DNA of 25,650 bases, from IMG/VR virus record IMGVR_UViG_3300030060_004053, positions 1 through 25,650 of that record; one strand, given 5' to 3'. The stretch is from a virus. Below are positions 5,135-25,650 of the stretch, one piece after another (position 1 is the first letter of the stretch; every line of letters starts with the position of its first letter). The notes under the pieces are model-generated. The model was not told the DNA's origin and searched no databases. It was given only the letters and a program-made list of their open reading frames with translations. The translations under genes were made by a program, and so were the position numbers.

Positions 5135-5171
5135 AAAATTTAATTTTAATTATTACTACTATGTTTATATC

Positions 5172-5190
5172 ATTACGTATTTTACGTAAT
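5172..5190. promoter_or_regulatory. Perfect palindrome between fibre and packaging blocks
   Basis: ATTACGTA and its exact complement TACGTAAT are separated by three T residues, giving an 8-bp stem. On the plus strand the stem is followed by TTTTT, resembling an intrinsic terminator pointing rightward, although no rightward gene is nearby. On the minus strand it sits between two leftward genes and is not followed by a U-tract. It could be an operator, an RNA processing hairpin or a barrier to antisense transcription. Confidence 0.45.
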
Positions 5191-5200
5191 TTTTACTTTA

Positions 5201-5695
5201 TTAATTTAATGCTAAAGGTTCTTTACTATAAGTTCTACCCTTATCATTAAACTTTTCAGTCATCCAAAACAAACCATCGGCTTTCCATTGGCCATGCCAT
5301 CTTGGTGCTCTAGGGCCTCTTCTGTCTGTATGTTTTGCAAATTCCCATATCCTATTTGCATTACCTTTTATTTTATCTAAAGATTCTACATAATATATAT
5401 CAAATGGACCTAATTTAGATGCTTCTTCCATTAATACAGGTAAATCATCACCTATATTTCCTGTGATACATATATCTATATCTGTTGTTTTCCAGCCTTC
5501 TAATAACCCACCAACTAAATATAGTTTATATCCAGACCAATCTAATTTTAATAAATCTTCAATACATCCTTTATATATTGCATCTTCAGTGCTTTCCATC
5601 CAAGGAACAAGTTGTAATCCTCCGTTTACATATCTTACCTCCCCGTCTGTTTCAAGGTTTAAATTATCTATGTTTAAATCTTCAAAATATCCCAT
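5201..5695 (-). CDS. Minimal nucleotidyltransferase-like protein
   Basis: A 164-aa protein with YLVGGLLEGWKTTDIDICIT around residues 59-78. A Gly-Gly turn followed about ten residues later by Asp-x-Asp is the signature of the DNA polymerase beta-type nucleotidyltransferase superfamily (GG ... DxD), which transfers nucleotides to proteins, RNA or small molecules. The third carboxylate may be the Asp of FDIYYVESL near 98. The C-terminal part is Trp/Arg-rich (RAPRWHGQWKADGLFWMTEK). The gene lies between the giant fibre gene (3 nt gap) and the packaging cluster. Such genes occur in marine phages, but substrate and role are unknown. The motif is clear; activity is inferred. Confidence 0.6.
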   Translation of the reverse strand: MGYFEDLNIDNLNLETDGEVRYVNGGLQLVPWMESTEDAIYKGCIEDLLKLDWSGYKLYLVGGLLEGWKTTDIDICITGNIGDDLPVLMEEASKLGPFDIYYVESLDKIKGNANRIWEFAKHTDRRGPRAPRWHGQWKADGLFWMTEKFNDKGRTYSKEPLALN

Positions 5696-5698
5696 ATT

Positions 5699-8600
5699 TT
5701 ATATATCATAACTTGTTAATGTAAATACTATTGTTACTGCAACATCTTGCCAAGTTTTTAAACTAGCACTTTTTTGATAAACTAAAGAAAATTTATCACC
5801 TGCTGCGTATGTAATATCACTGTGAGCAGTAGGGGTCCATGTTATTGCGCTGCTAGAAGCTGTTAATTCACCACTTGAAGAATTATTAGTAACTGCACCA
5901 TTTTTATAAGCTTTTAATTCTGTTGTAAAACTAGAACTAACACTACCCGCTACATTTTTAAATATTACTTTTTTCAACACACATGCATATGGTGTAATAA
6001 AGAAATGGGGAGCAAATGCACCTGATACACTTGTTTCTGTTATACTACCCATTAATGGAATTATTCTATTAGCTGTGGTAGAAGTTGTATCATCAAGAGA
6101 CGCATGAATTACCATAGGTACACTTCTGCCTTTTACATCTCCGCTTATAGACACATCGCCTGTTATACTAGCTCCAGAAGTTGTTGCTTCTATTCTCAGT
6201 ACGTTATTTGCGTAAATATAACTATGACCACCGCTAAAGAACTGCGCCATATTACTAGTGCCTCCTGAACTTTTTATATGAACGTGGCTTGATAATATGT
6301 CTAAACTTCCTGTGCCGCCATCCTTTATAATAGAGTCACTACCATCGTGATATATTTTTAAATCATCACCATCACCAAACCTTGCTTGTACATTATCTTT
6401 ATGTCTAGTAAAATTGCTTGCGGGGTTTATTTGAAATTTAGTAAAAGTTCCAACACCTCCTTCAAAGTATTTAAAATCAAAAGAATCACCACCTTGCACC
6501 TCTAAAAAATTACCGGTACCCATTTGAAAAGAATCACCAAATAGATAATTTGCATTTCCAGTATCAACTTTCAATCCTATATCACCACCTGCATCTACTT
6601 GAAATAATACTGTACCAGTGCCATCATCATTTACTTTAATAGAATTGCCTTTTAAAATTAAACTACCAGTTCCTGTATCATTTATATAAGAATTACTACC
6701 ATCGTGATATATTTGTAAATCAGCACCTGAACCTAATCTTAATATTTTACTATCTGTTATTAGTATATCTTCTGAAAATTTTGTTCTTTTATTAGTACCA
6801 TCTAATTTGAAATATTCAGTAGTGCCACCACCTCCATTATCACTTTGGAAAGAAATATCTTTATCATTAGCTTGTTGCATAATATAAAGATCTCCACCAT
6901 TATTATCTATATATGAATCAGTGCCGTCGTGATAAATATCTAAATCTCCACCACTACCAAACTCTGCCCTAATACTATCGCTATGTCTTGTGCCTTTTGA
7001 AAAAATTGTTTTTACATCTGCACCATCTAATCTAAAATATTCAGTTACGCTACCACTACCATCATCAGATTCAAAAATTATGTCAGAATCATCTGCTGAA
7101 TTTTTAATTGTAAGATTACCTGTAATATTATTTATAAAAGAATTTGAACCATCGTGTACTAAAATTAAATCACCACTACTACCAACTTTTAAATTTACGT
7201 TGTCTATAAAAAATGTATCTTTACTAAATACATTTATTTCCGAACTACCATCTAATCTAAAGTATTCAGTAACACCACCAGATCCATCGTCACAAAAGAA
7301 CTGTATATCAGCATCATCAACTTCTTGTTTAATTATGATATTTCCTGAAATTACTTGTTTTAATAATGTATTACCGTTGTTTACAAGTAATTGTCCATGC
7401 TCACTGCTACCAATTCTTAAAGAACTAGAATCCGTAATAGTAAATGTTTCTTGGGCTTTTACCCTTTTATTTTGCCCATCTATGAAAAAATATCTTGTAA
7501 CACCACCGCTAGCGTCATCAGAATAAAACTCAATATTTTTATCATCTGCTGTATTTCTTATGTTTAAATGACCTGTAGCGTTGTCAATAAAAGTATTTGT
7601 TCCATTGTGATATATTGACATATCTCCTGATGAACCTACTTGAAGATTAATACCATCGTCCATTCTAAGTCTTTTGCTGAACCTAGTTAAAGCACCACTA
7701 CCATCTAAATAAAAATACGTAGCAAGTCCACCAGAACCATCATCGCATCTAAATACAATATCTCTGTCATCATTAAACTGCTGAATATATAAATCTCCAG
7801 TACCATCACTATTTATAAGTGAATCTGAACCATCGTGTAATATTTTTAAATCTTGAGAATTTCCAGCTTTTAAAGCAAAATTATCAGGCATATGAATACC
7901 GGTGGTTCCAGTCATAGTGCCACCAGCTAAAGATAAAGCATCTGTTATACCATAACCTGATAAAGTTGTAGGGGTGCTTGTAATAGTACTAAACGTTTGC
8001 GTATGTTGTGCTGGTGTAAATGAACTTGGTACTCCAGATAAAGAACCATAAGCGCCATCAAAACTTGATGTCCCAGCACCTATATTTGTTCTAGCATTTG
8101 ATTTTTGAATAGAAGTTAACCCTTGACTAGCCGTGTCAACTCTAACTCTATTACTTAAAGATGTTGCTGTTGTTGTGCTAAAGTTTTCATCATCGCCTAA
8201 CGCAGCTGCTAATTCATTTAATGTATTTAATGCGCCTGGTGCTGAGTCAACTAAATTTGATACAGCTGTAGTAACAAAAGCAGTTGTAGCTATTTGAGTT
8301 GAATTATTCCCAGCGCTTGCTGTGGTTGATCTAGGCGTGCCTGTAAATGTTGGACTTGCTATTTTACCATATCTACTATCACCATATGTTTGAGTAACTA
8401 AATACTGCCAGTCTTCCCAACTAGTTCCTCTATATCTATAGGCTATTCCAGTTGTATTATTAGCACTTCCTTTTGAAAACAACTGAATACCATAATCTCC
8501 ACTACCTTGAGTAATAACTAAACCTGTTGAGTGAGAACTACCAAACGGATTATTTGTAGAACCTGTTAATCTATAAGAACCTCTAGTTGTTATTGTGTCC

Positions 8601-10366
8601 CAGTCATTACCTGATGATGCAAAGTTAGCAAATGAGTTTGCATTTATATATGTAGTATTAGCTGTTAGGCCAGTACCACCTTTTGCAACACCAATTACAT
8701 CACCCTGCCAATTAGCATTTGTTATATTGCCAGTTACATTTAAATTACCTGAAAAAGTTGCATTGCCTACAACATCTAATGGTTCAGATGGGGTTGCTTT
8801 CCCAATACCTACATTTCCGTTTTCTAATATTTTTAATCCACCACTTGTTTGTGTATGTGGTGCTATTAAAAGACCTTTTGTTGTATCAGTTGTGTTATCG
8901 CCATCAATTGAAAATATTAAACCTATGTCGCCGGCATTTGAAATACCTGTATAACCGCCACTTCCTAAAGATGGAACTACACTTACAAAACTAGTCCCGT
9001 CATCAACTCTAAGTGCTTGTATATTTGTTGATGATTCAACCACATGTAATTTATTGCCAGGTGAAGCAGTGCCCATACCAACATTACCAGTAAAATAAGA
9101 ATTATTTGTTGATGTATTTGCATAACCACCACCTGCATGAACAATTGCACCGCTTGGTACGTCAATCCTGCCATCATTTCTAACACTAAATAAACTTGTT
9201 CCTGAACTGTTACGTGCGATAAACGCATTTGCAGATGTATCGCTTGTTGAGCCATTAATTTGTAATTTTGCACCTGGTGAAGTGGTGCCTATTCCAACAT
9301 TGCCTGTAGCAGTTATATTACCTTCAATAGTTATGTTACCAGTAGTGTCTTGTTTAAAAGCATCTGCATTAGAACTACTACCAATATTAAAATTACCGGA
9401 AGCGTCTTTCCATAACCTATGACTTACGGCGTTACTACTTGTTATAGCCATACCGTTACCCGAAGCGTCGCCGTTTTGTCTTAATACAAACGCGCCTGTA
9501 GTTGACACGCCAGTACCACCGTTAAGAGTTAAAGCGCCAGTTGATGTGCTTGTAGTAGTTATTGTGCCTGTAGACGTTATAGCTCCAGAACCTATTGTTC
9601 CAATATTTTTTAAGTTTCTACTTAAATCAATAAACTGTGTTCTACTACCATCGCCTATATATAAACCATTATCACCAGCTGTAGTGCTATCAGACTTAAA
9701 TTGAAATACATTTCTATTTGACCAACTTGTATCATTACCAGGAAAACCATAAGCAACAAAACCACTTTCAGCTGCAAATAATACTTGTTCATTTGTCCAA
9801 CTATGATTAGCTTTAATAATAGATTTTACATCTCCAGCTGTAATAGCAACTGTATCATCAGCTCCTAATGCAAGAGCTCCATTTTCGCTAACTCTACTAA
9901 GTATTGTTTTTTCTGTACCGTTTACATCTATTTTTAATAGTGCTACCTCTGTAGTATATTCACCTGTATCGCCCGAAGGTTCATGGTCAAACACTATATG
10001 ACCATTAGCTGTAGTAAATATAAGATTATTATTCATTGTTGCAGCAGTTAATGCTAAAGTCCCATTAATAGTAGGGCTTTCTAATACTAAACTTGTATTT
10101 GCACCACCTAATGTTAAAGTTCTTGTTGAACTAGAATCAGCAAATATAGCCATATTCTGTTCAAATCTAATATCAACAGTATTTGTTCCATCACCAATAA
10201 AAACATCATCGCTACCATTACCAATAATAATATCACCTACAGAATTACTTAAAACTAAGTCATTACCATTTTGATCTATTTTACCGGCATTAGAACCTGC
10301 GGTAGTTTTAAATTGTATCTGACCTGCGCCGTGTATATTTAAATCATGTAAAAATTCTTTACCCAT
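5699..10366 (-). CDS. Large repetitive tail-fibre protein
   Basis: A 1555-aa Gly/Ser/Thr/Asp-rich virion appendage, probably a trimeric fibre that contacts the host surface. From the N-terminus: beta repeats (1-350); three NVGIGTTSP-type repeats near 356, 429 and 518, each followed by a KLxV-like strand; a segment about 553-660 resembling pyocin-knob domains (AKGGTGLTANTTY to EDWQYL); SPTFTGTPRSTTASAGNNST (671-690), a common fibre linker; six tandem units of about 75 aa (831-1284) plus a seventh GDGDDLKIYHDGSDS copy near 1331; and a non-repetitive C-terminal domain (about 1415-1555), likely the receptor-binding tip. No peptidase S74 chaperone is seen at the end. It starts 11 nt below the G8 protein gene. 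Confidence 0.85.
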   Translation of the reverse strand: MGKEFLHDLNIHGAGQIQFKTTAGSNAGKIDQNGNDLVLSNSVGDIIIGNGSDDVFIGDGTNTVDIRFEQNMAIFADSSSTRTLTLGGANTSLVLESPTINGTLALTAATMNNNLIFTTANGHIVFDHEPSGDTGEYTTEVALLKIDVNGTEKTILSRVSENGALALGADDTVAITAGDVKSIIKANHSWTNEQVLFAAESGFVAYGFPGNDTSWSNRNVFQFKSDSTTAGDNGLYIGDGSRTQFIDLSRNLKNIGTIGSGAITSTGTITTTSTSTGALTLNGGTGVSTTGAFVLRQNGDASGNGMAITSSNAVSHRLWKDASGNFNIGSSSNADAFKQDTTGNITIEGNITATGNVGIGTTSPGAKLQINGSTSDTSANAFIARNSSGTSLFSVRNDGRIDVPSGAIVHAGGGYANTSTNNSYFTGNVGMGTASPGNKLHVVESSTNIQALRVDDGTSFVSVVPSLGSGGYTGISNAGDIGLIFSIDGDNTTDTTKGLLIAPHTQTSGGLKILENGNVGIGKATPSEPLDVVGNATFSGNLNVTGNITNANWQGDVIGVAKGGTGLTANTTYINANSFANFASSGNDWDTITTRGSYRLTGSTNNPFGSSHSTGLVITQGSGDYGIQLFSKGSANNTTGIAYRYRGTSWEDWQYLVTQTYGDSRYGKIASPTFTGTPRSTTASAGNNSTQIATTAFVTTAVSNLVDSAPGALNTLNELAAALGDDENFSTTTATSLSNRVRVDTASQGLTSIQKSNARTNIGAGTSSFDGAYGSLSGVPSSFTPAQHTQTFSTITSTPTTLSGYGITDALSLAGGTMTGTTGIHMPDNFALKAGNSQDLKILHDGSDSLINSDGTGDLYIQQFNDDRDIVFRCDDGSGGLATYFYLDGSGALTRFSKRLRMDDGINLQVGSSGDMSIYHNGTNTFIDNATGHLNIRNTADDKNIEFYSDDASGGVTRYFFIDGQNKRVKAQETFTITDSSSLRIGSSEHGQLLVNNGNTLLKQVISGNIIIKQEVDDADIQFFCDDGSGGVTEYFRLDGSSEINVFSKDTFFIDNVNLKVGSSGDLILVHDGSNSFINNITGNLTIKNSADDSDIIFESDDGSGSVTEYFRLDGADVKTIFSKGTRHSDSIRAEFGSGGDLDIYHDGTDSYIDNNGGDLYIMQQANDKDISFQSDNGGGGTTEYFKLDGTNKRTKFSEDILITDSKILRLGSGADLQIYHDGSNSYINDTGTGSLILKGNSIKVNDDGTGTVLFQVDAGGDIGLKVDTGNANYLFGDSFQMGTGNFLEVQGGDSFDFKYFEGGVGTFTKFQINPASNFTRHKDNVQARFGDGDDLKIYHDGSDSIIKDGGTGSLDILSSHVHIKSSGGTSNMAQFFSGGHSYIYANNVLRIEATTSGASITGDVSISGDVKGRSVPMVIHASLDDTTSTTANRIIPLMGSITETSVSGAFAPHFFITPYACVLKKVIFKNVAGSVSSSFTTELKAYKNGAVTNNSSSGELTASSSAITWTPTAHSDITYAAGDKFSLVYQKSASLKTWQDVAVTIVFTLTSYDI
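6649..7876 (-). repeat. Six tandem ~225-bp coding repeats in the fibre gene
   Basis: The fibre frame repeats a unit with the pattern LxxGSxGDLxIYHDGSxSxI, then a loop, a DDxDIxFxSDDGSGG segment, TEYFxLDG and FSK. Unit starts fall at residues of about 831, 908, 983, 1059, 1134 and 1209, spaced 75-77 aa. The third unit is most diverged (HGQLLVNNGN replaces the YHDGS turn). The sixth loses the DDGSGG part, where the fibre changes to a different beta segment. Confidence 0.8.
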
Positions 10367-10376
10367 TTTTTATTAT

Positions 10377-13178
10377 TTAAATTCTTCCTGATATTCTTTT
10401 TTTACCAACATTAAAATTTGCTGATGGTCTTATTGTTACTTTTGCAAAATTCATTGGCCACATTTGTAATCCATTAGCCGGTGCTTTTGACATAGCTACG
10501 TGTATATCTTCTGCTTCAAAGCCTTCATGAACTAAATCATGATCTTGAAAATAATAACCAAATCTTAAATAGTAGCTTGAATATTGAGGTTGTACTGTTA
10601 TTATTTTTGTTTCAAAAGCGCCAATTGCATCTGTAGTGTGTTGTTCGTATTCTATAAAACCATTATATAATTTTCCTTGAGCTTGCGTACTGTTTTTTAT
10701 ATCTGCAGTTTCATTTGAATCATTTAAATCAAATTCATCTTGATAAAAATTATGATTATTAGAATTTACATCATATTCATTAGCGCCAAATTTTGCGTTA
10801 AAAGCATATGCCGCAATTATATAAGGTGGAGATGATGAATCAACGCCTCTAGATGTTCCATCCCACTCTGTTTCATTTATTTTAATTACAGATTTTATTT
10901 TAACAGTACAATTTGCTGGCACTTGAATCATACCAAAGGAATTTGGATTACCACTCCATGCAGAAACGTATAGATCACGAGCATAGCCCTTTAAATTTTT
11001 AAATCTTGTTATATTGTAATATATAAATACTTTTTCACTTTCTTTAAATCCTTGTTCACTAAAGCAACAAACAGCTTTCCAACCAGTACCGCCTCTATAT
11101 AAAGCTTGATGAGAACTCGCGTGACTTAAAACAACATTTTGGTATTTTCTACCAAGAGAACCTGTTTTATATATACTAGAAGTTGCATCCCAAGAATTAG
11201 GATATATTTTAGAATCATATACATGAAAATTACTATGACTATCAGCTATATACGTTGCTTGACTAAATTTATCAGCAAAAAATCTTTTATAATTAGGGGT
11301 TACGCTACTTCCTCCAAAATAAAAAGCATAACCACGTTGATTTTCACTTCTTATATAAGCAGCCATTGATTGGTCGTTTTGCCTACCAAGATTATAAAAT
11401 AAATAACCATAGTCTTCAGAACTATAAGCCTGCATATATGAGTATTCATTAGGATATTCATATGCAGCTTCAAAAGACATATTAGAATAATTACAATGTG
11501 CTGTTATATGCCCATGTGATTTTATATGATATTGCGAACTCCAATGCCAAACACCCCTACCTGCTCCAACTACTATATGATTTCTATTAACCATACCATA
11601 GGGATGTCTAATAGTTATACCAATATAACTTTCACCATCTCTAGTATCATTACCAGCATGGTTGTATGCTGTAAAACTACATCCATCTATATAGTTTTCA
11701 CCTGTTTGTGTAATACCGTTGCTATTATGTATTGTTGTATTGTCTGCAGCGCTACCGGTTGTAGATTTTCTGAAATAACCATTATAACCAGCTATATTTA
11801 CTCCGGATCTAAAGTTTGTATTATCATTAGTATTATTACCTAAACCTATAAACTCTACATATTTTATTTTAACTCTTCTTGTTGGTGCATTATTCCAACT
11901 GTTGCTTGTCCAATATTTTACATTAAAAAAGACTCTTGCTGTAGAGTTATCTGCATCAGCTATATCATTACCACTACTATCACAAGCTTTAATAACAATA
12001 TCTCTTTTCATTTTTACAACAGGATTACCCACTGCACCATTAAAAAGTATATCTCTATCAACAGTTATTGTTTTAGCACTAGAATCAACACTTGTTATTG
12101 TGTAGTTAGCTTTAAGCCTCCACTGCCCTTCATTAACCCCCACTGAAGTACTTCCAAATCCGCTAGAAGTATAATAATAATCACCAGCAAGATTACCACC
12201 AAGTTTATCAAAACTAGCATGTATATAAACTGTGTCGCCAGTTGAAAAATCAGTTACATCATTAAGTGTAATGGTTCTAAGACTAGTAGCACCTATATAT
12301 TCTGTTGCTATAGCGCTTGCAATTCTTCTGCAGAATTTTCCATTTATGTGATATTTTTCGGTGCCGGTTTGATATACTTTTGCACCAATTAAGGAGGGAT
12401 CGTTGTCTACAGAGCTACCAAAGGTTATGGTATTTTTGCTTATATCTGTAACACGTAGTACGTTTCTATTATTACCAGTACCAAATATTAAATAATAACC
12501 AACTCTAAATATTTCTGCATCTTCAGATATTGTTATTGTAGAACCACTAACAGACTGTATTGTTGCTTCAGGACCAACATATCTTCTAACATAAATCCTA
12601 TCATTTGTGGTGTCTACGTCATGAACAAAAAAGCATTCGTCATTTACAAGTGAAAAATCTTCTTCTCTTTTGTAAAGTGATATTCTATCGTTAGCCGCAA
12701 AATTTGAAGCGTCTGCTACTGTTATGTATGTAGCGTCTGGTGCTTGATTACCATTAACAGTTGTTACTAAAGTTGGTTCGCTACCATCTATCTGAACACC
12801 ACACCATCTTCTACTATTTATTTGTATACCATGTTGTGCATCTTGATCGCCTGACATTTTTATTTCAGTACCGCCAACCATACTAAGTAATGACCCTGAA
12901 GTGCTAGTGCCTTCAACAAACTCACCAGCTGTATTATTACTGTTATTAGTATTATTTACAGTCATACGACCGTGTAAGTGCATTTTACCGCCATTAGCAA
13001 AATGTAAATTACCGTCTATAGTAACGTCTCCAGTTCTTGTTGACTGTATATCTGTATTTAAAGTAACTTTATGGCCATGTGCAATAACTACTAAATCATC
13101 AGCGGCAGGAACTGATCCTCCTGACCATGTAGAGCCTGTAGCCCAGTTACCCGATGAATTACTCGTTATTGTCGCCAT
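10377..13178 (-). CDS. G8-domain / beta-helix tail appendage protein
   Basis: A 933-aa protein. Residues about 9-75 (NWATGSTWSGGSVPAADDLV, then V-x-L strands and VTIDGNLHF) match the G8 domain pattern: a Trp-containing start, GGxVP, then a beta sandwich with IxGxLxF. G8 domains occur in carbohydrate-linked extracellular proteins such as CEMIP and TMEM2. Residues about 270-660 have the short strands, Asn ladders and Gly turns of a right-handed parallel beta-helix (VEFIGLGNNTNDNTNFRSGV, IDGCSFTAYNHAGND, HIVVGAGRGVWHW). This suggests a tailspike that binds or degrades polysaccharide. No catalytic residues can be assigned with confidence. Its start overlaps the upstream 64-aa gene by 20 nt, and it precedes the giant fibre gene. 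Confidence 0.75.
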   Translation of the reverse strand: MATITSNSSGNWATGSTWSGGSVPAADDLVVIAHGHKVTLNTDIQSTRTGDVTIDGNLHFANGGKMHLHGRMTVNNTNNSNNTAGEFVEGTSTSGSLLSMVGGTEIKMSGDQDAQHGIQINSRRWCGVQIDGSEPTLVTTVNGNQAPDATYITVADASNFAANDRISLYKREEDFSLVNDECFFVHDVDTTNDRIYVRRYVGPEATIQSVSGSTITISEDAEIFRVGYYLIFGTGNNRNVLRVTDISKNTITFGSSVDNDPSLIGAKVYQTGTEKYHINGKFCRRIASAIATEYIGATSLRTITLNDVTDFSTGDTVYIHASFDKLGGNLAGDYYYTSSGFGSTSVGVNEGQWRLKANYTITSVDSSAKTITVDRDILFNGAVGNPVVKMKRDIVIKACDSSGNDIADADNSTARVFFNVKYWTSNSWNNAPTRRVKIKYVEFIGLGNNTNDNTNFRSGVNIAGYNGYFRKSTTGSAADNTTIHNSNGITQTGENYIDGCSFTAYNHAGNDTRDGESYIGITIRHPYGMVNRNHIVVGAGRGVWHWSSQYHIKSHGHITAHCNYSNMSFEAAYEYPNEYSYMQAYSSEDYGYLFYNLGRQNDQSMAAYIRSENQRGYAFYFGGSSVTPNYKRFFADKFSQATYIADSHSNFHVYDSKIYPNSWDATSSIYKTGSLGRKYQNVVLSHASSHQALYRGGTGWKAVCCFSEQGFKESEKVFIYYNITRFKNLKGYARDLYVSAWSGNPNSFGMIQVPANCTVKIKSVIKINETEWDGTSRGVDSSSPPYIIAAYAFNAKFGANEYDVNSNNHNFYQDEFDLNDSNETADIKNSTQAQGKLYNGFIEYEQHTTDAIGAFETKIITVQPQYSSYYLRFGYYFQDHDLVHEGFEAEDIHVAMSKAPANGLQMWPMNFAKVTIRPSANFNVGKKRISGRI

Positions 13179-18532: not shown

Positions 18533-18972
18533 TAGCGATCTTTATCCTTAATCATATCATCTATAGCTTTATTATAAACTTTATCAGTATATGATTTATT
18601 ATTATAAAATACACTACGCTCGCTAGTAGGTAAGTCTTCTTGCGCGAGCATTATTCTGTATATACGAGATATAAGTTGACTACATTTAAATGAGGTTTTA
18701 TATATACTGTATTTTATAGTTGTTCTATTTCTATGACGCCATACATCTATCCACCCTTCTTTGCGAAGTCTTTCCCATCTGTTTTTATCCCATGAGTATG
18801 TATATACGCCTTCTATAAATTCATTACGTGTAAATCGCGATTTGCAATCTAAATAGATTAAAAGTTCTAAATCAGCGTCTTTTAACCCGTAAGTTTTACA
18901 GGCCCATTTACGTATGAGCCTATAATACTTTAATAAATTTAAATCTTTTAAATCACTTGGCTCTAGTCTCAT
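18532..18972 (-). CDS. Putative winged-helix DNA-binding protein
   Basis: A 146-aa protein with helices around DLKDLNLLKYYRLIRKWACK and LKDADLELLIYLDCK, then FTRNEFIEG, YSWDKNRWERLRKEGWIDVW and a basic beta hairpin RHRNRTTIKYSIYKTS. This order (three helices, a wing with RN-rich turn) fits a MarR/PadR-type winged helix, and the WERLRKEGWI region would be the recognition helix. It could regulate late genes, but its position inside the late block is as consistent with a structural or packaging role. It overlaps groES by the shared ATGA. Confidence 0.6.
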   Translation of the reverse strand: MRLEPSDLKDLNLLKYYRLIRKWACKTYGLKDADLELLIYLDCKSRFTRNEFIEGVYTYSWDKNRWERLRKEGWIDVWRHRNRTTIKYSIYKTSFKCSQLISRIYRIMLAQEDLPTSERSVFYNNKSYTDKVYNKAIDDMIKDKDR

Positions 18973-19226
18973 TCAACTAAAACTATATCACCAAGCTTTA
19001 ATACATAATATAGTTTATCTTTCCATTGAATACCATGCCCTGCATGCTTATCGTAATGTACTATATCGCCTGTATTTAACATTTCCACTTTATCACCAGC
19101 AGAAATTATTTTGCCTTTTGAATATCTTATATCTTTGTTTTGATCTTCAGTAAGCTCTAAGCCACCTACTTTCTTCGGTGCTTCTTTAATTTTTTCTATT
19201 ACTATATAATAATTAACTGCTTGCAT
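18969..19226 (-). CDS. groES: Co-chaperonin GroES (phage-encoded)
   Basis: An 85-aa GroES, the lid of the chaperonin. VNYYIVIEKI at the start, the mobile-loop region KKVGGLELTEDQ (residues 19-30), YSKGKIISAG, TGDIVHYDK, and a final YYVLKLGDIVLVE match GroES strand by strand. The mobile-loop hydrophobic tripeptide that docks onto GroEL (IVL in E. coli) reads LEL here. It is slightly shorter than the usual 95-97 aa, with a reduced roof loop. It overlaps the groEL 3' end by 14 nt and lies 3' of it, reversing the usual bacterial groES-groEL order. Acquired from a bacterium or a phage lineage; phage groES alone is common, the pair less so. Confidence 0.85.
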   Translation of the reverse strand: MQAVNYYIVIEKIKEAPKKVGGLELTEDQNKDIRYSKGKIISAGDKVEMLNTGDIVHYDKHAGHGIQWKDKLYYVLKLGDIVLVE

Positions 19227-20778
19227 TGTCTAGTCTTATATTTGAAATTACACAATCTGCAGAAATTATAGTATTAACAACACTAACTGCATTCTTTAGT
19301 GCTGTCTTAGTTACAAGTACAGGATCAATAATGCCAGATTTAATCATATTAACTTGTTTTCCACATACAACATTAACACCTGTTCCTTGCTTACCTGTTT
19401 CTTTATATTCTAAATTAGCGTTTTCTAAAATAGTTTTATATGGAGCCTTTATAGCTTCTAATAAAATACGTTCGCCTTCATTTTCAGGTTGTATATTATA
19501 ATGAGCATCTAATAACGCAACCCCACCACCAGATACTATTCCTTCTTGTAATGCAGCTTTAGTTGCATATATAGCGTCTTCAACTCTATCTTTCTTTTCT
19601 TTTAACTCAATTTTAGAATCGGCGCCGACTTTTATCATCGCAACTTGCCCATTTAGCATAGCTAAACGTTCTTGTTGCTTCTTCTTAAAGTACGGATCTT
19701 TTTCTTTTTTTATTTTCTTTTCAACGTTTTTAACGCGTTCTTTAGAAATTTCACCTTGATCTATAGTTTGAAGAACTGTATGTGTATTATCGGTTATAGC
19801 TTGTTTAGCTTCACCAAGAACATCTGGATTTATTAAATCTAAATCATCACCAAGTTCTTCGTCTATTATTTTTGCTCCAGTCAATATCGCAAGATCTTCT
19901 ACTGTATCTTGCTTAGTTGGTCCGAATCCAGGCAGATCTACAACATTAACTTTTATATTGCCTTTTACCTTGTTAGCTAATAAAGCTGCCATAGGTTGTT
20001 GTTCTACGCCTGCAACGATTAATAAGCTCCTTTTCTTTTTAATAACAAACTCCAATACATTTTGTATTTTACGAATATTAGGTATTGGCGAAGTAACTAT
20101 CAGTACGTACGGGTTGTTTAGTTCTGCCTTACCTTTATCCTTATCTGTTATAAAATGTGGCGATTTGAGTCCGCCTTCTATTCTGGTGCCCTCTACGAAT
20201 TTAACGTATGTGTCATGGGTCTCAGACTCTTCCATTAGGACGACACCATCCTTACCTACTTTCGAATAGGCTTGCGATATAATATTTCCTAGAGCTTCAT
20301 CATTATTGCAACTAATAGCACTCACGGATCTTAACATGTCATCCTTGACTGGAATTGCTTCCTCCTGCAAGTGCTTAGTTACTTTATCAAGGGCGGAGGA
20401 TATACCTAATTTAACATTACGTACACCCTCATCCTTAATCTTCGCATATGCTAAATGCAACAATGCCTGCGCAAGCACTGTCGCTGTTGTTGTGCCGTCT
20501 CCAGCTTCTTTCACTGTATTCCTAGCCGCTTCCTTTATTAGGGTAGCGCCTATATTTTCGACCGGATCATATAAGACTACGGATTCTGCTACCGTTACAC
20601 CGTCTTTTGTTATAACCGGCCGACCTAATGCGTCTTCGTATATTACGCATTTTCCTGAAGCACCTAAGGTTGACTTTACTGCGTTAGCTAGTTTATCAAC
20701 CCCGTGCGTTATTTTATCTTTTGCATCTGTCCCGAAAGACAGATTTTTTACTATCTCACTTGGGTTATTATATTCCAT
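19213..20778 (-). CDS. groEL: Chaperonin GroEL (phage-encoded)
   Basis: A 521-aa 60-kDa chaperonin that folds proteins in an ATP-driven ring, here probably capsid or fibre proteins. Equatorial signatures are intact: ITKDGVTVA (56-64, Asp59), AGDGTTTATVLA (92-103, Asp94) and RVEDAIYATKAALQEGIVSG (398-417, catalytic Asp401), followed by GGGVALL. LPGFG (282-286) marks the apical domain. By-eye alignment to E. coli shows changes at the substrate- and GroES-binding face: Tyr199 to Leu204, Tyr203 to His208, Leu234 to Gln239, Val264 to Ala268. Phe204 and Leu237 are kept. The flexible GGM tail is absent, the protein ending LDNASS. It heads the groEL-groES pair; a 26-nt gap precedes it. Confidence 0.95.
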   Translation of the reverse strand: MEYNNPSEIVKNLSFGTDAKDKITHGVDKLANAVKSTLGASGKCVIYEDALGRPVITKDGVTVAESVVLYDPVENIGATLIKEAARNTVKEAGDGTTTATVLAQALLHLAYAKIKDEGVRNVKLGISSALDKVTKHLQEEAIPVKDDMLRSVSAISCNNDEALGNIISQAYSKVGKDGVVLMEESETHDTYVKFVEGTRIEGGLKSPHFITDKDKGKAELNNPYVLIVTSPIPNIRKIQNVLEFVIKKKRSLLIVAGVEQQPMAALLANKVKGNIKVNVVDLPGFGPTKQDTVEDLAILTGAKIIDEELGDDLDLINPDVLGEAKQAITDNTHTVLQTIDQGEISKERVKNVEKKIKKEKDPYFKKKQQERLAMLNGQVAMIKVGADSKIELKEKKDRVEDAIYATKAALQEGIVSGGGVALLDAHYNIQPENEGERILLEAIKAPYKTILENANLEYKETGKQGTGVNVVCGKQVNMIKSGIIDPVLVTKTALKNAVSVVNTIISADCVISNIRLDNASS

Positions 20779-21368: not shown

Positions 21369-21667
21369 ATGTTATATTATTACCTATAATATTAGAATTT
21401 TAAGAATGTGACGCTTGCTAACTACTATTATATACTTATTAGCTAATGTCGTATTAGATATATAGGATTAATGGGTTACACATACGTATGTCGTGCCACC
21501 GCTGTAACCGGAAACGCTATATATAAACGCAGCCCCCGTGCTTAATTGCCGTTTTAGCTTGCTGTTCTAGGGAAACCTGCTGGACCTCGGCGAGCCTAAG
21601 GTATTGCATTATAATAATTTCCACCGGATATTCAGCTTTTCCTGCGGAACCTATGCTGTATAGCAAT
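21369..21667. other. Divergent non-coding region 1 with hairpins
   Basis: No credible gene. It lies between the leftward late block and the rightward early block and looks richer in GC than flanking genes from about 21,470. Visible structure: GGTTAC at 21,474-21,479 pairs with GTAACC at 21,504-21,509 and encloses the 12-bp palindrome ACATACGTATGT (21,480-21,491). CTGTA/TACAG at 21,657-21,672 forms a hairpin. The leftward promoter for the late genes must be here but I cannot place it. A structured RNA, origin or operator cluster is possible. Confidence 0.4.
21653..21667 (+). repeat. Direct repeat copy 1 (ATGCTGTATAGCAAT)
   Basis: Exact 15-bp match to 22,292-22,306. It overlaps a CTGTA/TACAG hairpin here and lies directly before promoter 1. 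Confidence 0.6.
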
Positions 21668-21710
21668 TACAGACCTAGCACGTAGCTTGATTGATATTAT
21701 ATATGTAACT
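21668..21710 (+). promoter_or_regulatory. Early promoter module copy 1
   Basis: TACAG, four bases, AGCACGTA, 13 bases containing TTGATAT, then TATATATG followed by TAACT. It matches the four other copies in element order and exact spacing, with two substitutions in the AACACGAA box. It drives the 44-aa membrane protein, whose ATG is 25 nt past the last box. Confidence 0.75.
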
Positions 21711-21729
21711 AAAGTAAATAAAATATATT

Positions 21730-21864
21730 ATGAAAAGAAAATTCACACACTATGCAATCAACGTTGTACTAATCAGTTTGACCTGGCTATTCGGATTCGG
21801 GTTCATTAACCTCATCATCCATCTAATGTTTAACGACCCAACGATAACGTTTGGCGGCTGGTAA
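21730..21864 (+). CDS. 44-aa single-span membrane protein
   Basis: A short frame behind promoter 1: MKRKFTHYAI, then a hydrophobic stretch of about 23 residues (NVVLISLTWLFGFGFINLII) and a short C-terminal NDPTITFGGW tail. The basic N-terminus followed by a hydrophobic helix predicts a small inner-membrane protein with the N-terminus inside. Its codon use is ordinary and the leader is A-rich, and it has its own promoter with another directly downstream, so it is probably a real early gene. Small membrane proteins of early phage regions often modify host functions, but no homology is recognised. Confidence 0.65.
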   Translation: MKRKFTHYAINVVLISLTWLFGFGFINLIIHLMFNDPTITFGGW

Positions 21865-21867
21865 GAA

Positions 21868-21910
21868 TACAAAGTAAACACGAAACACAATTGATATTAT
21901 AAATGTAACT
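21868..21910 (+). promoter_or_regulatory. Early promoter module copy 2
   Basis: TACAA, four bases, AACACGAA, 13 bases ending TTGATAT, TATAAATG, then TAACT. It starts four bases after the 44-aa gene stop and precedes the 100-aa gene ATG by 22 nt (last box to ATG). It is exactly 200 bp from copy 1. Confidence 0.8.
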
Positions 21911-21926
21911 ATTAAAACTTAAAATT

Positions 21927-22229
21927 ATGAATGCGAAATTAAATCAAGCTATTAGCAAACTAAGTAAGAAAGAACTAAAAGAAATCTTTCCACCAATAAC
22001 ACGTAAGAACTTTGTAGTAAGAAAGTCATGGTACGGTAGAAACCAAATCATAACATTCACTAACAACAAGAATCAAAAGATTACTTATAATCACGACGAG
22101 GTTCTTAAAGTAATGTTACCAAAGCTAAGCATAATGCCATGCTGGCTAAAGCGAGGCTACTGGTCACAGTCAACTGACATGCCAACTAATGTTAGAGACA
22201 AAGTAATAGAAAGAGTTGAATTAAAGTAA
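21927..22229 (+). CDS. 100-aa basic protein, function unknown
   Basis: A Lys/Arg-rich protein starting MNAKLNQAISKLSKKELKEI, a helical N-terminal half. The middle (VVRKSWYGRNQIITFTNNKN) looks like two beta strands with a basic turn, followed by KVMLPKLSIMPCWLKRGYWS and a helical end. The basic character and position as a single gene behind promoter 2 suggest an early nucleic-acid-binding or host-directed protein. No family recognised. Confidence 0.7.
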   Translation: MNAKLNQAISKLSKKELKEIFPPITRKNFVVRKSWYGRNQIITFTNNKNQKITYNHDEVLKVMLPKLSIMPCWLKRGYWSQSTDMPTNVRDKVIERVELK

Positions 22230-22531
22230 ACTACTCAGCTATCTACACCCGCGCTTCGAGCTCACTGAAAGTGTCACTCAACAGCGGGGTGATGCTGTAT
22301 AGCAATGTATAGCATTGCGTATAGCAAAAATTGCGCCGGAAATTCACCGTATGCCGTATTGTCATATAATAGTTACTAACATGACAGATCGACGGTCGGT
22401 AAATAGTGTGACAAAAGCTTACTATTATTACTAATATTACTAGCTAACGTCACTATTTTCACTTTACACAAAGAGAGAGTTTGAATTATACCTACAATAC
22501 TTTTTTTACTAATAAACAACTAGTATACTTT
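22230..22531. other. Non-coding region 2 with hairpins and repeats
   Basis: About 300 bases without a gene, with candidate secondary structure: CCCGC/GCGGG around 22,248-22,288 enclosing CACTGAAAGTG; GTATAGCA three times at 22,298-22,325; the GCAATG/CATTGC hairpin at 22,302-22,318; TGTCAT/ATGACA at 22,360-22,386; and an imperfect inverted repeat from about 22,402 to 22,456. It shares the 15-mer and a ccgga-attcaccg-like block with region 1. A structured RNA, origin or regulatory array is plausible. Confidence 0.4.
22292..22306 (+). repeat. Direct repeat copy 2 (ATGCTGTATAGCAAT)
   Basis: Exact 15-bp copy of 21,653-21,667. Here it leads into two more GTATAGCA repeats and a 6-bp hairpin. Confidence 0.6.
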
Positions 22532-22574
22532 TACAAGCTAAACACGAACTAAAATTGATATTAAGTATGTAACT
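22532..22574 (+). promoter_or_regulatory. Early promoter module copy 3
   Basis: TACAA, four bases, AACACGAA, 13 bases ending TTGATAT, TAAGTATG, then TAACT. It drives the three-gene run 22,589-23,233; distance from last box to ATG is 20 nt. The second and third gene of the run begin inside the previous coding region. Confidence 0.8.
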
Positions 22575-22588
22575 ATAAAAATAATAAA

Positions 22589-22873
22589 ATGAATACTAAA
22601 GAAATTATTAACTTTACTAAAAACGAAATAGTAAAACACAAAGAAAATGTAAACTATTGGGGAAGTGAAGAAGACGTAAACAATGAAACTATAATTATTA
22701 ACTATGTAATGCATAATGGCATAGTGAATCAAGACTGGTTTGACGAGAGATTGAAGTCAACAAGTATAGAAATGTTAGAAGATATACTAAGAGAATTATA
22801 CTTAAATCACTTAGACAAACATGACGAAGATGAGGTAACTAGAGATGAATACATACAATACTTTGCATTATGA
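22589..22873 (+). CDS. 94-aa acidic protein, function unknown
   Basis: Starts MNTKEIINFTKNEIVKHKEN and contains NNETIIINYVMHNGIVNQDW and LEDILRELYLNHLDKHDEDE. It is acidic and largely helical, ending with an Asp/Glu-rich segment. First gene of the operon behind promoter 3; its stop overlaps the next start (ATGA). Perhaps an inhibitor or DNA-mimic-like protein given the charge, but that is speculation and no family is recognised. Confidence 0.7.
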   Translation: MNTKEIINFTKNEIVKHKENVNYWGSEEDVNNETIIINYVMHNGIVNQDWFDERLKSTSIEMLEDILRELYLNHLDKHDEDEVTRDEYIQYFAL

Positions 22874-23013
22874 GTAGATTAGATAAGAGAATAGTAGCGT
22901 TACTGAAAATAGAAATGTTCACTAAAAGTGGACTAGAATACAGTGACTTGAGTAAAGAAGAAATATTAAACCAAATTAACCAACTAATAAACGAAGCATA
23001 TGAACCAGAGTAA
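22870..23013 (+). CDS. 47-aa protein, function unknown
   Basis: A short frame from ATG 22,870 (ATGA overlap with the previous gene) to TAA 23,013: MSRLDKRIVALLKIEMFTKS, then GLEYSDLSKEEILNQINQLI. Two helices with a leucine-rich second one. The 14-nt overlap with the next gene fits coupled translation. Too short for family assignment. Confidence 0.6.
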   Translation: MSRLDKRIVALLKIEMFTKSGLEYSDLSKEEILNQINQLINEAYEPE

Positions 23014-23233
23014 AAAAGGTGATACATACTATGTGTGTAAGTCAATGAAGGAATTGATTGCTTACACTAAAATGAAAAGAAAACAAAGAAAACATAGCCA
23101 TGCTAAAATACTAAAAGTATACGGTGAGTGCCGAGGTATGGGTAATCGAAGATATAAAGTTGAAGGTAAAAAAACTTATAGTAAAGGTAAACAATATGCT
23201 TATACTCACAGGTGGAATCACTTTTACAAATGA
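23000..23233 (+). CDS. 77-aa very basic protein
   Basis: Starts MNQSKKGDTYYVCKSMKELI and continues with KMKRKQRKHSHAKILKVYGE, ending with a KGKQYAYTHRWNHFYK tail. Two Cys 31 residues apart (13 and 44) do not form a clear zinc site. The charge and aromatic residues suggest RNA or DNA binding. Last gene of the operon; its 3' end overlaps the upstream part of promoter 4. Confidence 0.65.
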   Translation: MNQSKKGDTYYVCKSMKELIAYTKMKRKQRKHSHAKILKVYGECRGMGNRRYKVEGKKTYSKGKQYAYTHRWNHFYK

Positions 23234-23267
23234 AACACGAAATAGATTTGATAATATATATGTAACT
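23225..23267 (+). promoter_or_regulatory. Early promoter module copy 4
   Basis: TACAA, four bases, AACACGAA, 13 bases with TTGATAA, TATATATG, then TAACT. The upstream element lies inside the 3' end of the 77-aa gene. The next ATG is 18 nt past the last box. Confidence 0.8.
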
Positions 23268-23279
23268 AATAAAAAAAAT

Positions 23280-23387
23280 ATGTATAAAATAAAACTTAAA
23301 ACAGTGTACTTCTTAGTTGTAATACTACTAAGACCAACAATAAAAGTGTTAAAAAAAATAGAATATAAACTAATAAATACAATATAA
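23280..23387 (+). CDS. 35-aa hydrophobic peptide behind promoter 4
   Basis: MYKIKLKTVYFLVVILLRPT followed by a basic, Lys/Ile-rich end. The N-terminal 20 residues contain a short hydrophobic run suited to a small membrane peptide. Reading frame opens before this ATG, but the promoter position and the A-rich leader favour this start. One base separates it from the next gene. Coding status is moderately likely because of its length. Confidence 0.5.
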   Translation: MYKIKLKTVYFLVVILLRPTIKVLKKIEYKLINTI

Positions 23388-23388
23388 T

Positions 23389-23643
23389 ATGCAAACATTA
23401 TACCAAAGACTAAAGCCAGAAATCAAAGCAAAACTAAAAGAAAATGCACAGAAATACGAGTACGGACCACGTGAAGTAATTGCTGAACTACATAGATTTA
23501 CTTTGTACAATGACTTAACTATGCGTACTATTAAAGATTTACTAATCTGGGGTGATGTAAATGAATTTGAGTGGGATAGAATTGATTTTAAATACGGAAA
23601 TGAATTATTTATAGATGGAAAAATTGACAATGACAGAATTTAA
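23389..23643 (+). CDS. 84-aa protein, function unknown
   Basis: MQTLYQRLKPEIKAKLKENA gives an amphipathic helix, followed by KYEYGPREVIAELHRFTLYN and a D/E/W-rich half with NEFEWDRIDFKYGNELFIDG. Helical start, mixed end. Member of the promoter-4 operon; overlaps the next gene at its 3' end. Confidence 0.7.
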   Translation: MQTLYQRLKPEIKAKLKENAQKYEYGPREVIAELHRFTLYNDLTMRTIKDLLIWGDVNEFEWDRIDFKYGNELFIDGKIDNDRI

Positions 23644-23836
23644 AGATTTTGACCCGGTAAAAATAGCTAATAAGCTAAAGCAAGTTGAAGAGTTTGAAGC
23701 AAAGTATGGCTCTAACAACTTAACAAGAGCATGGTACAAATGGTGTAATAGCTATGAGTACAGAAAAAAAGAATGGGAGTGGAGACAAGGTCTTGCTAAA
23801 GCTCATGAAGAAATATACGTTAAAAAAATATACTGA
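23615..23836 (+). CDS. 73-aa protein, function unknown
   Basis: ORF from ATG 23,615 (MEKLTMTEFKDFDPVKIANK) with an alternative ATG at 23,630 whose A-rich leader and 14-nt overlap with the previous gene are also plausible. Trp-rich second half (RAWYKWCNSYEYRKKEWEWR), likely helical. The stop sits one base before the next ATG. No family recognised. Confidence 0.6.
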   Translation: MEKLTMTEFKDFDPVKIANKLKQVEEFEAKYGSNNLTRAWYKWCNSYEYRKKEWEWRQGLAKAHEEIYVKKIY

Positions 23837-23837
23837 T

Positions 23838-24053
23838 ATGATAAAGTTTGATAGATATAAAGAAAATTTAAGACAAGTTGGTAGTGATATATATTCATAC
23901 TCAACTCACGTTGCAACGATCGAATATGATGACAATTACCACTTAACAGGTAATTTAATACAACACGGATGGTGGAGCGTAACAACCCAGAAACATATTA
24001 ATTATGTTGCAAGAGAATTAGGTTTAACAGTAAAAAAAGATTATGTCGAATAA
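23838..24053 (+). CDS. 71-aa protein with THVATI and TTQKHINYVARELGL motifs
   Basis: Start taken at ATG 23,838, immediately after the previous stop; the frame runs upstream inside the neighbouring gene but that is probably a shadow. MIKFDRYKENLRQVGSDIYS, THVATIEYDDNYH, then HGWWSVTTQKHINYVARELG. A compact small-domain pattern (conserved His, Trp-Trp, TT-x-KH) that I recall from phage proteins, perhaps DUF8033-like. Function unknown. The next gene starts 10 nt before its end. Confidence 0.65.
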   Translation: MIKFDRYKENLRQVGSDIYSYSTHVATIEYDDNYHLTGNLIQHGWWSVTTQKHINYVARELGLTVKKDYVE

Positions 24054-24234
24054 CGAATTAAACTATAAAGCATGGGCTCGGGAAGAATGGGAAAAGTTTT
24101 ATAAAGCAAATCAAGATAAATATGATGGCTTAGAAGACTTTGAAATAGCTTACGGGTTTTTAGTGCATATGTATAACAATCGATTAGGTAAATTTAACTT
24201 ATCTAACTCTATAAAAAATATTAAATTAAAATGA
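24043..24234 (+). CDS. 63-aa protein, function unknown
   Basis: MSNNELNYKAWAREEWEKFY and then GLEDFEIAYGFLVHMYNNRL. Acidic and helical with a central hydrophobic helix. Overlaps the previous gene by 11 nt and ends 4 nt inside the next. Promoter-4 operon member; no family recognised. Confidence 0.6.
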   Translation: MSNNELNYKAWAREEWEKFYKANQDKYDGLEDFEIAYGFLVHMYNNRLGKFNLSNSIKNIKLK

Positions 24235-24431
24235 GTAAAATGAAAGAAATAGATAGGATAGCAGAGTACTTACACGAAGTAATGCTAGAAAACCTTGACG
24301 ACTCAATTGACTGGGCTGTTGATGGTATACCTGAAATAGAAAACTTAGAGAATGATGAATATAACCAAATGAAAACAGCAATAATAAAAAGAACAATTGA
24401 GTATATGCTGAATTATCATAGAGAATTATAA
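24231..24431 (+). CDS. 66-aa acidic helical protein
   Basis: MSKMKEIDRIAEYLHEVMLE, DSIDWAVDGIPEIENLENDE, and a C-terminal helix with TAIIKRTIEYMLNYHREL. Strongly acidic in the middle. Last gene of the promoter-4 run, overlapping its predecessor by 4 nt (ATGA), with promoter 5 directly behind it. No family recognised. Confidence 0.6.
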   Translation: MSKMKEIDRIAEYLHEVMLENLDDSIDWAVDGIPEIENLENDEYNQMKTAIIKRTIEYMLNYHREL

Positions 24432-24432
24432 T

Positions 24433-24475
24433 TACAAGCTTAACACGAAATAGATTTGATATTATAAATGTATGA
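24433..24475 (+). promoter_or_regulatory. Early promoter module copy 5, possibly leaderless
   Basis: TACAA, four bases, AACACGAA, 13 bases ending TTGATAT, TATAAATG at 24,463-24,470, then T and the ATG of the next gene at 24,472. In the other copies 18-25 nt lie between the last box and the ATG; here there is one base. A transcript starting a few bases past the box would have no leader. Confidence 0.75.
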
Positions 24476-24663
24476 AAAAATGTAAATGTTCAAATATAAT
24501 ACCCGCTGGCCGTATTGCCTTAGGTTATAGTACTTGTATCTCCTGCAGTGCTATACAACAATATAGTTACATTCCCATAATCAACGGTAAGACGGGTAAT
24601 ACCATCCAAGTTGTGTCACCAGAAGTTTCGGCTTCGGTGCACAAAGCTTGGAGAAGAAAATAA
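24472..24663 (+). CDS. 63-aa small zinc-ribbon-like protein
   Basis: Residues 4-25 (CKCSNIIPAGRIALGYSTCI with a following SC) give four Cys in a C-x-C-x15-C-x2-C pattern, a small treble-clef or zinc-ribbon. The rest (YIPIINGKTGNTIQVVSPEV and a basic KAWRRK tail) is beta-then-helix. Small conserved phage proteins with a C-x-x-C zinc site and a KTGN motif are known in the marine phages I recall; DksA/TraR-type zinc proteins are a further comparison. Regulatory role possible. Start at the ATG because the TATAAATG box is immediately upstream. Confidence 0.7.
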   Translation: MKKCKCSNIIPAGRIALGYSTCISCSAIQQYSYIPIINGKTGNTIQVVSPEVSASVHKAWRRK

Positions 24664-25057
24664 GTTATAGGCATGGCGAAGGCGAATTTACGCGGACGCA
24701 AGATATAACAGAGACGAGTAGCTTAATTAGGATAGGTAAGCGGTTTAACAAAGCTCTATCACATAAGTGAATGGCTCGTTTTAAGGCTAGTAAGTTTAGC
24801 AGTATTAAGGTGGCCGCATGCAGCCCGTAACTCTTAATATGGTCGCGGTAAAATTCCGCAGAGTCTAAAAATATTAATGTCGGAGGCGCACCGCTACTGC
24901 GAATATGGTACAATTTAAAATACCAATATATTCAGATAAGTATGAGCGACCCGAGACCTTTAGGGTAAAACACGAAGGACGGTAATTGGTAGTTACATGT
25001 AAACTACATCACCCCAGAAAGCGTGGGTATGTGCACAATACCACCCTATAATATTAT
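24664..25057. other. Non-coding region 3 upstream of the tRNA
   Basis: About 390 bases without a convincing gene on either strand and visibly less AT-rich than flanking genes. Local hairpins: GCGG/CCGC around 24,845-24,860, TGGTA/TACCA at 24,906-24,925, GTAGTT/AACTAC at 24,989-25,007, and a bulged GTGGGTAT/ATACCAC stem at 25,023-25,044. A structured RNA transcribed into or with the tRNA, or a tRNA-processing leader, are possible. Confidence 0.35.
24969..25006 (+). promoter_or_regulatory. Degenerate sixth promoter copy before the tRNA
   Basis: AACACGAA at 24,969-24,976 is followed by TTGGTAGTTACATGTAAACT. Compared with the canonical TTGATATTATAAATGTAACT it is two to three bases displaced and lacks the upstream TACAA. 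The core is partly palindromic. It would transcribe the tRNA and the downstream 152-aa gene. Confidence 0.4.
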
Positions 25058-25132
25058 AGCGGGATGGAGCAGTTTGGTCAGCTCGCAGGGCTCATAACCC
25101 TGAGGTCACAGGTTCGAATCCTGTTCCCGCAA
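25058..25132 (+). tRNA. Initiator tRNA-fMet (CAU), CCA not encoded
   Basis: Full cloverleaf: acceptor 25,058-25,064 with 25,125-25,131, D stem GAGC/GCUC, anticodon stem CAGGG/CCCUG with CUCAUAA loop (anticodon CAU at 25,093-25,095), variable AGGUC, T stem ACAGG/CCUGU with UUCGAAU. Initiator hallmarks are present: three G:C pairs at 29-31/39-41, A11:U24 in the D stem, and no Watson-Crick pair at 1-72 (A1 opposite A72; E. coli has C1-A72). The discriminator is A and the next bases are CTA, so CCA must be added. It lies behind the degenerate promoter copy. Confidence 0.9.
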
Positions 25133-25153
25133 CTAACTGAAAATCAATTAATT

Positions 25154-25612
25154 ATGGAAATTTTAACTGATGAAATAATCATCGAAAAACTAAATGAAGA
25201 TGGCTTTATGGAAGAGCCGGATGGTCCTTGGCTACTAGAGTATATTCGATCAGAATACGGTGGTGAATTAGACACTACAAGTGACTTTATTGACGACAAG
25301 TATACATTAAAAATATATAGTGAATCCACTTATGATTGTTACGATATATACTGGTGTACTCATGAAAATAGACCTCATGTATCACAAGACGGTTACTACT
25401 ATGAAGATTATTCTGACTGGTCGGATAAAGCAGTAGATGAATTAACTAGTGGCGGTAACGTATGGATAGAAAATCATATATGGAGTGACATGGAATATGA
25501 CTTCAACCACAGGCTTGAGGAGTGGTGGCAAGATATATATGAAGAATTAATGGAAGAAAAAAAAGAAGAACTATTAGACACTGGTGAATATAAATTAGAA
25601 GAAGATGAATAG
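25154..25612 (+). CDS. 152-aa acidic, Trp/Tyr-rich protein
   Basis: Starts at ATG 25,154, 22 nt after the tRNA. The frame continues upstream across the tRNA but that part is not credible as protein. MEILTDEIIIEKLNEDGFME, KYTLKIYSESTYDCYDIYWC, DGYYYEDYSDWSDKAVDELT, HIWSDMEYDFNHRLEEWWQD and a Glu/Lys end. Rich in Asp, Glu, Tyr and Trp, so strongly acidic; a DNA-mimic or inhibitor is conceivable, but no family is recognised. Its stop overlaps the next gene. Confidence 0.7.
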   Translation: MEILTDEIIIEKLNEDGFMEEPDGPWLLEYIRSEYGGELDTTSDFIDDKYTLKIYSESTYDCYDIYWCTHENRPHVSQDGYYYEDYSDWSDKAVDELTSGGNVWIENHIWSDMEYDFNHRLEEWWQDIYEELMEEKKEELLDTGEYKLEEDE

Positions 25613-25650
25613 TAGAAAAGCATACGAATTAGAACACGGCGCAGATATAA
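25605..25650 (+). CDS. Start of a further small gene (cut by the window)
   Basis: ATG 25,605 overlaps the previous stop by 8 nt, giving MNSRKAYELEHGADI before the window ends. The overlap style matches the other early genes. Product unknown because most of it lies outside. Confidence 0.5.
   Translation, partial: MNSRKAYELEHGADI

Follow-up and report, generated by a model that had tools for sequence, protein, structure and literature searches.

At the middle promoters of phage T4, which uses the host sigma70, a MotA box at about -30 works together with AsiA. Other phages supply the sigma factor themselves: SaPh711_gp47 of phage 7-11 serves late promoters of the form GTAAtg-(16)-aCTA, and gp36 of phiEco32 a single element, tAATGTAtA, with gp79 as co-factor; such promoters serve late genes in both phages and in phiEco32 also middle genes (PMC8948821). 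Among the flavobacteria, sigma-A reads TAnnTTTG in the register -12 to -5, the median leader of Flavobacterium psychrophilum is 24 nt, and 5.5% of its mRNAs are leaderless (PMC9723704). Here, we analyse a 25,650-bp virus fragment from IMG/VR (the window, meaning the whole stretch of DNA analysed), whose + strand carries five copies of a three-block motif that we consider highly likely to be promoters of a phage-encoded sigma70-family factor, read with the host RNA polymerase core. Phage sigma factors with their own promoters are a known kind of system; what appears new is this particular example, with its host phylum and its architecture. Literature searches on AACACGAA and on flavobacterial phage sigma factors returned nothing relevant, nor did we come across any account of a sigma regulon for a Bacteroidota phage in the literature searched.

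The preliminary description of the window reported five sites of identical spacing, with 9 nt from TACA to a central box and 21 nt from the box to TATATATG, and both distances hold in every copy (Table 1). All five sites lie just 5′ of small open reading frames (ORFs). The pattern TACARN4AACACGAAN13TATATATG, with up to three mismatches, matches the window at exactly these five places and at none in 100 dinucleotide shuffles. The box is AACACGAA except in copy 1, which has AGCACGTA; the motif extends to TTGATA(A/T)TATAWATG and is followed by TAACT in four copies and by TATGA in the fifth.

The motif belongs to a family of related phages. The window's terminase is 62% identical to that of the uncultured podovirus MW202828, 44% to those of the Flavobacterium elemo phages and 36-41% to those of Cellulophaga and Maribacter phages. 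When viral contigs were searched for a stringent version of the motif, 35 stretches were returned; nearly all the contigs concerned have several copies, almost always on one strand. We read 15 long contigs in full (the 15 long relatives), whose terminases are 70-95% identical to the window's and of which G020 (64,493 bp) is the closest. The motif was found in all 15: with a 42-column weight matrix, each genome has between 3 and 15 sites, confined to a single strand, with no copy on the structural-gene strand and with the same outcome at thresholds from 10 to 16. Matrix scores were bimodal, and reversed sequence gave zero matches. The consensus is YTTACARNCYNAAYACGAN6WTYGATAATATAWATGTAAC; its outer TTACA and TGTAA were considered as a hairpin stem, a reading that we rejected as no compensating change is seen in the column frequencies. 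Equal frequency inside coding regions, which would have spoken against a promoter, was not seen: ORFs of 100 aa or more contain only 8 of 168 sites, where their coverage would predict 138.

Column statistics over 604 distinct sites, which come from related genomes and are not all independent, place the motif in a promoter frame. GATAAT (columns 16-21) is conserved at 98-100% per column and lies at a distance of 9 from AxYACGA in 322 of 340 pairings; column 28 is a purine in 99% of sites (G 69%, A 30%), preceded by T in 78%. The first downstream ATGs peak at columns 28-32 (leaders of 0-4 nt; 29 protein families) and at columns 46-52 (leaders of 18-24 nt; 88 families), with a dip between them, a pattern that holds for ORFs and for protein families alike; the second peak holds 18.9 families per column and the dip 4.8. 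We regard a further ATG peak at column 26 (18 families) as largely an artefact of the ATG within the motif, many such ORFs having an in-frame ATG in the second peak. Because of the near-invariant purine at column 28 and this distribution of gene starts, we predict +1 at the last base of TATATATG, which places TACARnCY at -37/-30, AAYACGA at -28/-22 and GATAAT at -12/-7. Flavobacterium leaders have a median of 24 nt (PMC9723704); the second ATG peak (+19 to +25) agrees with this, which counts in favour of a promoter. Two assignments of the preliminary description are revised by this frame. It had equated the position of TATATATG with that of the host -7 element, but TATATATG spans -7 to +1 and the -10 element GATA(A/T)T lies five bases upstream; it had put AACACGAA at the -33 position, but the block at -35 is TACAR, and AACACGAA is in the spacer at -28/-21. 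In some relatives, a conserved sequence of about 45 nt, GGGCCTGRCTTTGAAATAnnGTCGGAAGAGTAGACTCCGTCCTAC, begins near the predicted +1 of some motif copies. Conservation sets in at about column 28-29, in agreement with the predicted start, and the sequence may represent a small RNA of the phage; the sole Rfam match of the L124 copy is far below the gathering score.

The frame also bears on whether a phage RNA polymerase, either T7-like or a virion polymerase within a giant virion protein, could read the motif. AATACGA is the core of the T7 promoter, the motif's spacing is fully rigid, and an ORF of 2,200-3,860 aa stands among the virion genes of every long relative (17694-25784 in G020; 741-12320 in MW202828). 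A purine start 7 nt after GATAAT nevertheless suits a sigma promoter better, no single-subunit RNA polymerase gene was seen among the core genes, and RNA_pol_Rpb1_2 (PF00623) found no match while its controls did. RNA_pol (PF00940) was likewise without a match in 17 records, although that profile's own controls were also unmatched. A Pfam search of the giant G020 protein gave no match, and we reject a virion polymerase there; altogether, a phage polymerase as the reader of these sites is very improbable. By eye, the giant ORF has zinc-protease-like and HAD-like motifs, and its product is perhaps an injected polyvalent protein.

The best candidate reader is a 254-aa protein that a comparison of gene content found in 15 of 15 motif-bearing genomes and did not detect in MW202828 or the elemo phages, where the motif was not detected either. 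It matches PHROG 351, ′RNA polymerase sigma factor′ (4.5e-14 to 7e-22), its homologues carry the Pfam domains Sigma70_r2 (12 of 14) and Sigma70_r4 (8 of 14), and its PDB profile matches are sigma factors without exception. The predicted structure (pLDDT 77) retrieved bacterial sigma factors as all of the top 50 Foldseek matches. The protein is a sigma70-family factor with regions 2 and 4. A gene overlapping it or nearby upstream, adjoining it in 77 of 80 loci, has a product of 205 aa whose C-terminal part contains a helix-turn-helix (HTH; weak match to Pfam HTH_11) and whose predicted structure (pLDDT 89) has no significant match in the PDB. In three loci (L187, L229 and L256), the sigma gene itself begins at motif column 28-30, so direct autoregulation is likely there. 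In L257, whose motif is strongly altered, a second, ECF-like sigma was noted by eye at 7994-8518, with a weak Sigma70_r2 match below cut-off.

Motif and sigma gene occur together. Eighty contigs were selected by sigma homology alone; the motif set shares at least three of them, those of L196, L198 and L250. Of the 52 that extend 7 kb or more upstream of sigma, all but two contain the motif (50), and the exceptions (L257 and L274) have variants in which GATAATATAAATG and the spacing are intact and the upstream block differs; sites lie upstream of sigma by 354 to 8. Over all 80 contigs, 394 of 400 sites are on the sigma strand and 6 on the opposite one. Terminase-selected loci, which cover mostly the structural region, had motif matches in 2 of 80. 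Rare opposite-strand copies are followed by a conserved GGGGCCCGG stretch (L228 2401, L231 500, L236 2292, L241 2103). The proposal of a promoter module that is specific to the phage and recognised by a sigma-like factor of its own has thus gained support, with a sigma70-family gene in all 15 long relatives and a motif that tracks it.

Alternatively, the motif might be read by the host's own polymerase, unmodified and carrying a host sigma factor, leaving the phage sigma to serve other genes. GATAAT does occupy the register in which host sigma factors read their -10/-7 element, and some promoter has to function before phage sigma exists. However, 84,980 bacterial and archaeal genomes (257 Gb) contain just 6 exact motif matches, about the chance level by our estimate; the motif is unlike the flavobacterial sigma-A -7 box and the sigma-54, SM5 and ECF motifs (PMC9723704), and it is absent from the sigma-less relatives with related hosts. 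We therefore assign this explanation very little probability.

We conclude that these sites form a real class of phage sigma promoters, found throughout the family and unusual in the conserved box in their spacer, and that the virus very probably reprogrammes host transcription with its own sigma factor. What was computed directly is the motif, the strand that it occupies, its geometry relative to gene starts, the presence of the sigma gene and the co-occurrence of the two; from these we infer recognition of the motif by this sigma, the start position, the time class and the role of the HTH protein. The host core with phage sigma would recognise GATAAT, the rigidly spaced AAYACGA and TACAR(nCY), transcription would begin 7 nt past the -10, at the purine, and the co-encoded HTH protein would probably aid recognition of the upstream block. 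The promoters would drive the clustered small genes of the early, non-structural strand; in some phages they would also drive the sigma gene, in positive feedback. Early or middle expression is suggested by the position of the motif-driven cluster at the start of the non-structural arm and by the lack of sites on the structural strand.

Several points weigh against this account. The co-occurrence of motif and sigma is confounded by common descent, all of these phages being related. A conserved box within the -10/-35 spacer is unusual as a sigma contact. A few genes, from five families, have their start codon at columns 22-24 and so lie too far upstream to be served by the proposed +1, and host-type TTG-N17-23-TAnnTTTG promoters, which might have accounted for the first synthesis of sigma, were not enriched in a simple pattern search. 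Finally, the window does not contain the sigma gene. It appears to end too early: a gene of which the window has only the first codons has its G020 homologue at 42696-42977, and in G020 the sigma gene (39701-40465) follows the start of that homologue by about 2.5 kb and the HTH partner gene (40462-41079) follows it by 1.9 kb, so that sigma is expected, from this synteny, just beyond the right edge.

The upstream block drifts between lineages while the -10, the spacing and the start remain fixed, which suggests, without proving it, a part for the HTH protein in the recognition of this block. It takes the forms TACAR, TGCAR, AAGGTT, CGGAC or, where the HTH gene is missing, TCGAA; TGCAR or AAGGTT replaces TACAR in some phages with the HTH gene present. 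HTH-less phages, which may be one clade, use TCGAAnnnTAATACnA-N9-GATAATA, usually in 5-6 copies on one strand per sigma-bearing record, and TCGAA motifs occur in seven sigma-bearing records, none of which has the HTH gene. One HTH-less phage retains TACAAAC, with AATATTA instead of the usual box. HTH-less phages also have, by eye, a DNA-ligase-like gene upstream of sigma. A two-protein system, in which GATAAT and the spacer box are read by phage sigma and the -37/-30 block by the HTH protein, whose fold is unmatched, is a tentative and somewhat doubtful elaboration. The simple mapping of the HTH protein onto TACAR was not upheld, as L265 has lost TACA and has the HTH gene and L283/G039 keeps TACA without it. 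The near-constant pairing of sigma with an HTH gene, and an upstream block (-37 to -22) longer than a usual -35, could instead point to an operator or RNA-level element, such as an HTH protein binding site, that regulates genes transcribed from elsewhere; since the motif carries a -10 and +1 signature and is retained in genomes without the HTH protein, this is hardly credible.

Read as promoters of the phage sigma factor, the sites resemble those of phage 7-11 in their use of a phage sigma70-family factor with the host core and in being bipartite, well conserved and low in copy number; they differ in sequence, in their third box within the spacer, and in being absent from the structural-gene strand, where the 7-11 sites precede late genes. 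As in phiEco32, a phage sigma would be joined by a second phage protein acting on transcription, a role that is putative for the HTH protein and implies no relation to gp79; phiEco32 promoters lack a -35 and gp36 lacks region-4 homology, both of which have counterparts here in the upstream boxes and region 4. T4 middle promoters also have a box near -30 that replaces or supplements the -35 beside a normal -10, but there the phage does not supply sigma, whereas here it does, with an HTH partner that has no significant PDB match. Flavobacterium sigma-A promoters share the -10/-7 register and similar leader lengths, with TAnnTTTG rather than GATAAT and with TTTG at -33 rather than TACAR and AAYACGA (PMC9723704). 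The analysis provides a base-by-base prediction of promoters and starts for an uncultured but widespread family of phages, relatives of those of Flavobacterium and Cellulophaga, together with the candidate proteins that would read them. If correct, it would give the Bacteroidota, for which genetic tools are few, an orthogonal sigma/promoter pair, and its naturally occurring promoter variants would form a series in which the evolution of sigma specificity could be studied.

Table 1. Promoter copies and other features, in window positions unless a contig is named.
Feature	Position	Strand	TACA start	Upstream block and box	-10	Predicted +1	Matrix score	Leader and following ORF
Promoter copy 1	21667-21705	+	21668	TACAGACCT 21668-21676; box AGCACGTA 21677-21684	GATATT 21693-21698	G 21705	37.5	25 nt to ATG 21730; 44 aa, 21730-21864 (+)
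Promoter copy 2	21867-21905	+	21868	TACAAAGTA; box AACACGAA 21877-21884	GATATT 21893-21898	G 21905	44.8	22 nt to ATG 21927; 100 aa, 21927-22229 (+)
Promoter copy 3	22531-22569	+	22532	TACAAGCTA; box AACACGAA 22541-22548	GATATT 22557-22562	G 22569	40.0	20 nt to ATG 22589; 94 aa, 22589-22873 (+)
Promoter copy 4	23224-23262	+	23225	TACAAATGA; box AACACGAA 23234-23241	GATAAT 23250-23255	G 23262	41.4	18 nt to ATG 23280; 35 aa, 23280-23387 (+)
Promoter copy 5	24432-24470	+	24433	TACAAGCTT; box AACACGAA 24442-24449	GATATT 24458-24463	G 24470	40.2	2 nt to ATG 24472, predicted nearly leaderless mRNA; 63 aa (MKKCKCSN...), 24472-24663 (+)
Phage-encoded GroEL	19213-20778	structural
GroES-sized ORF, follows GroEL	18969-19226	structural
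Right-edge gene, first codons only (putative, from synteny with G020)	25606-25650	+
Conserved sequence of about 45 nt	L186 14615, L015 4548(-), L030 1721, L003 2106(-), L006 8038(-), L008 4927(-), L124 157

The - strand of the window holds structural genes, portal, terminase and groEL, and the + strand the small ORFs and a tRNA-Met. The ORF of copy 5 has the same start position in G020. Before the tRNA-Met (25058-25133) lies a G+C-richer non-coding stretch of 394 nt (24664-25057), patchily conserved among relatives, with no Rfam match and a fold energy no better than shuffles (z -0.2). The non-coding stretch 5′ of copy 3 (22230-22531) is 82-89% conserved in close relatives, contains GTATAGCA repeats and a GTGAC..GTCAC hairpin, and has a predicted RNA fold that beats shuffles (z -2.4); it is a candidate RNA or terminator. 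On the late strand, TATAATATTWTATC stands directly 5′ of the ATG of several structural genes (G001, G010, G013 and other relatives), and a hairpin, TTACCC-N15-GGGTAA, lies between two structural genes on the structural strand at a single locus; both are possible late signals.

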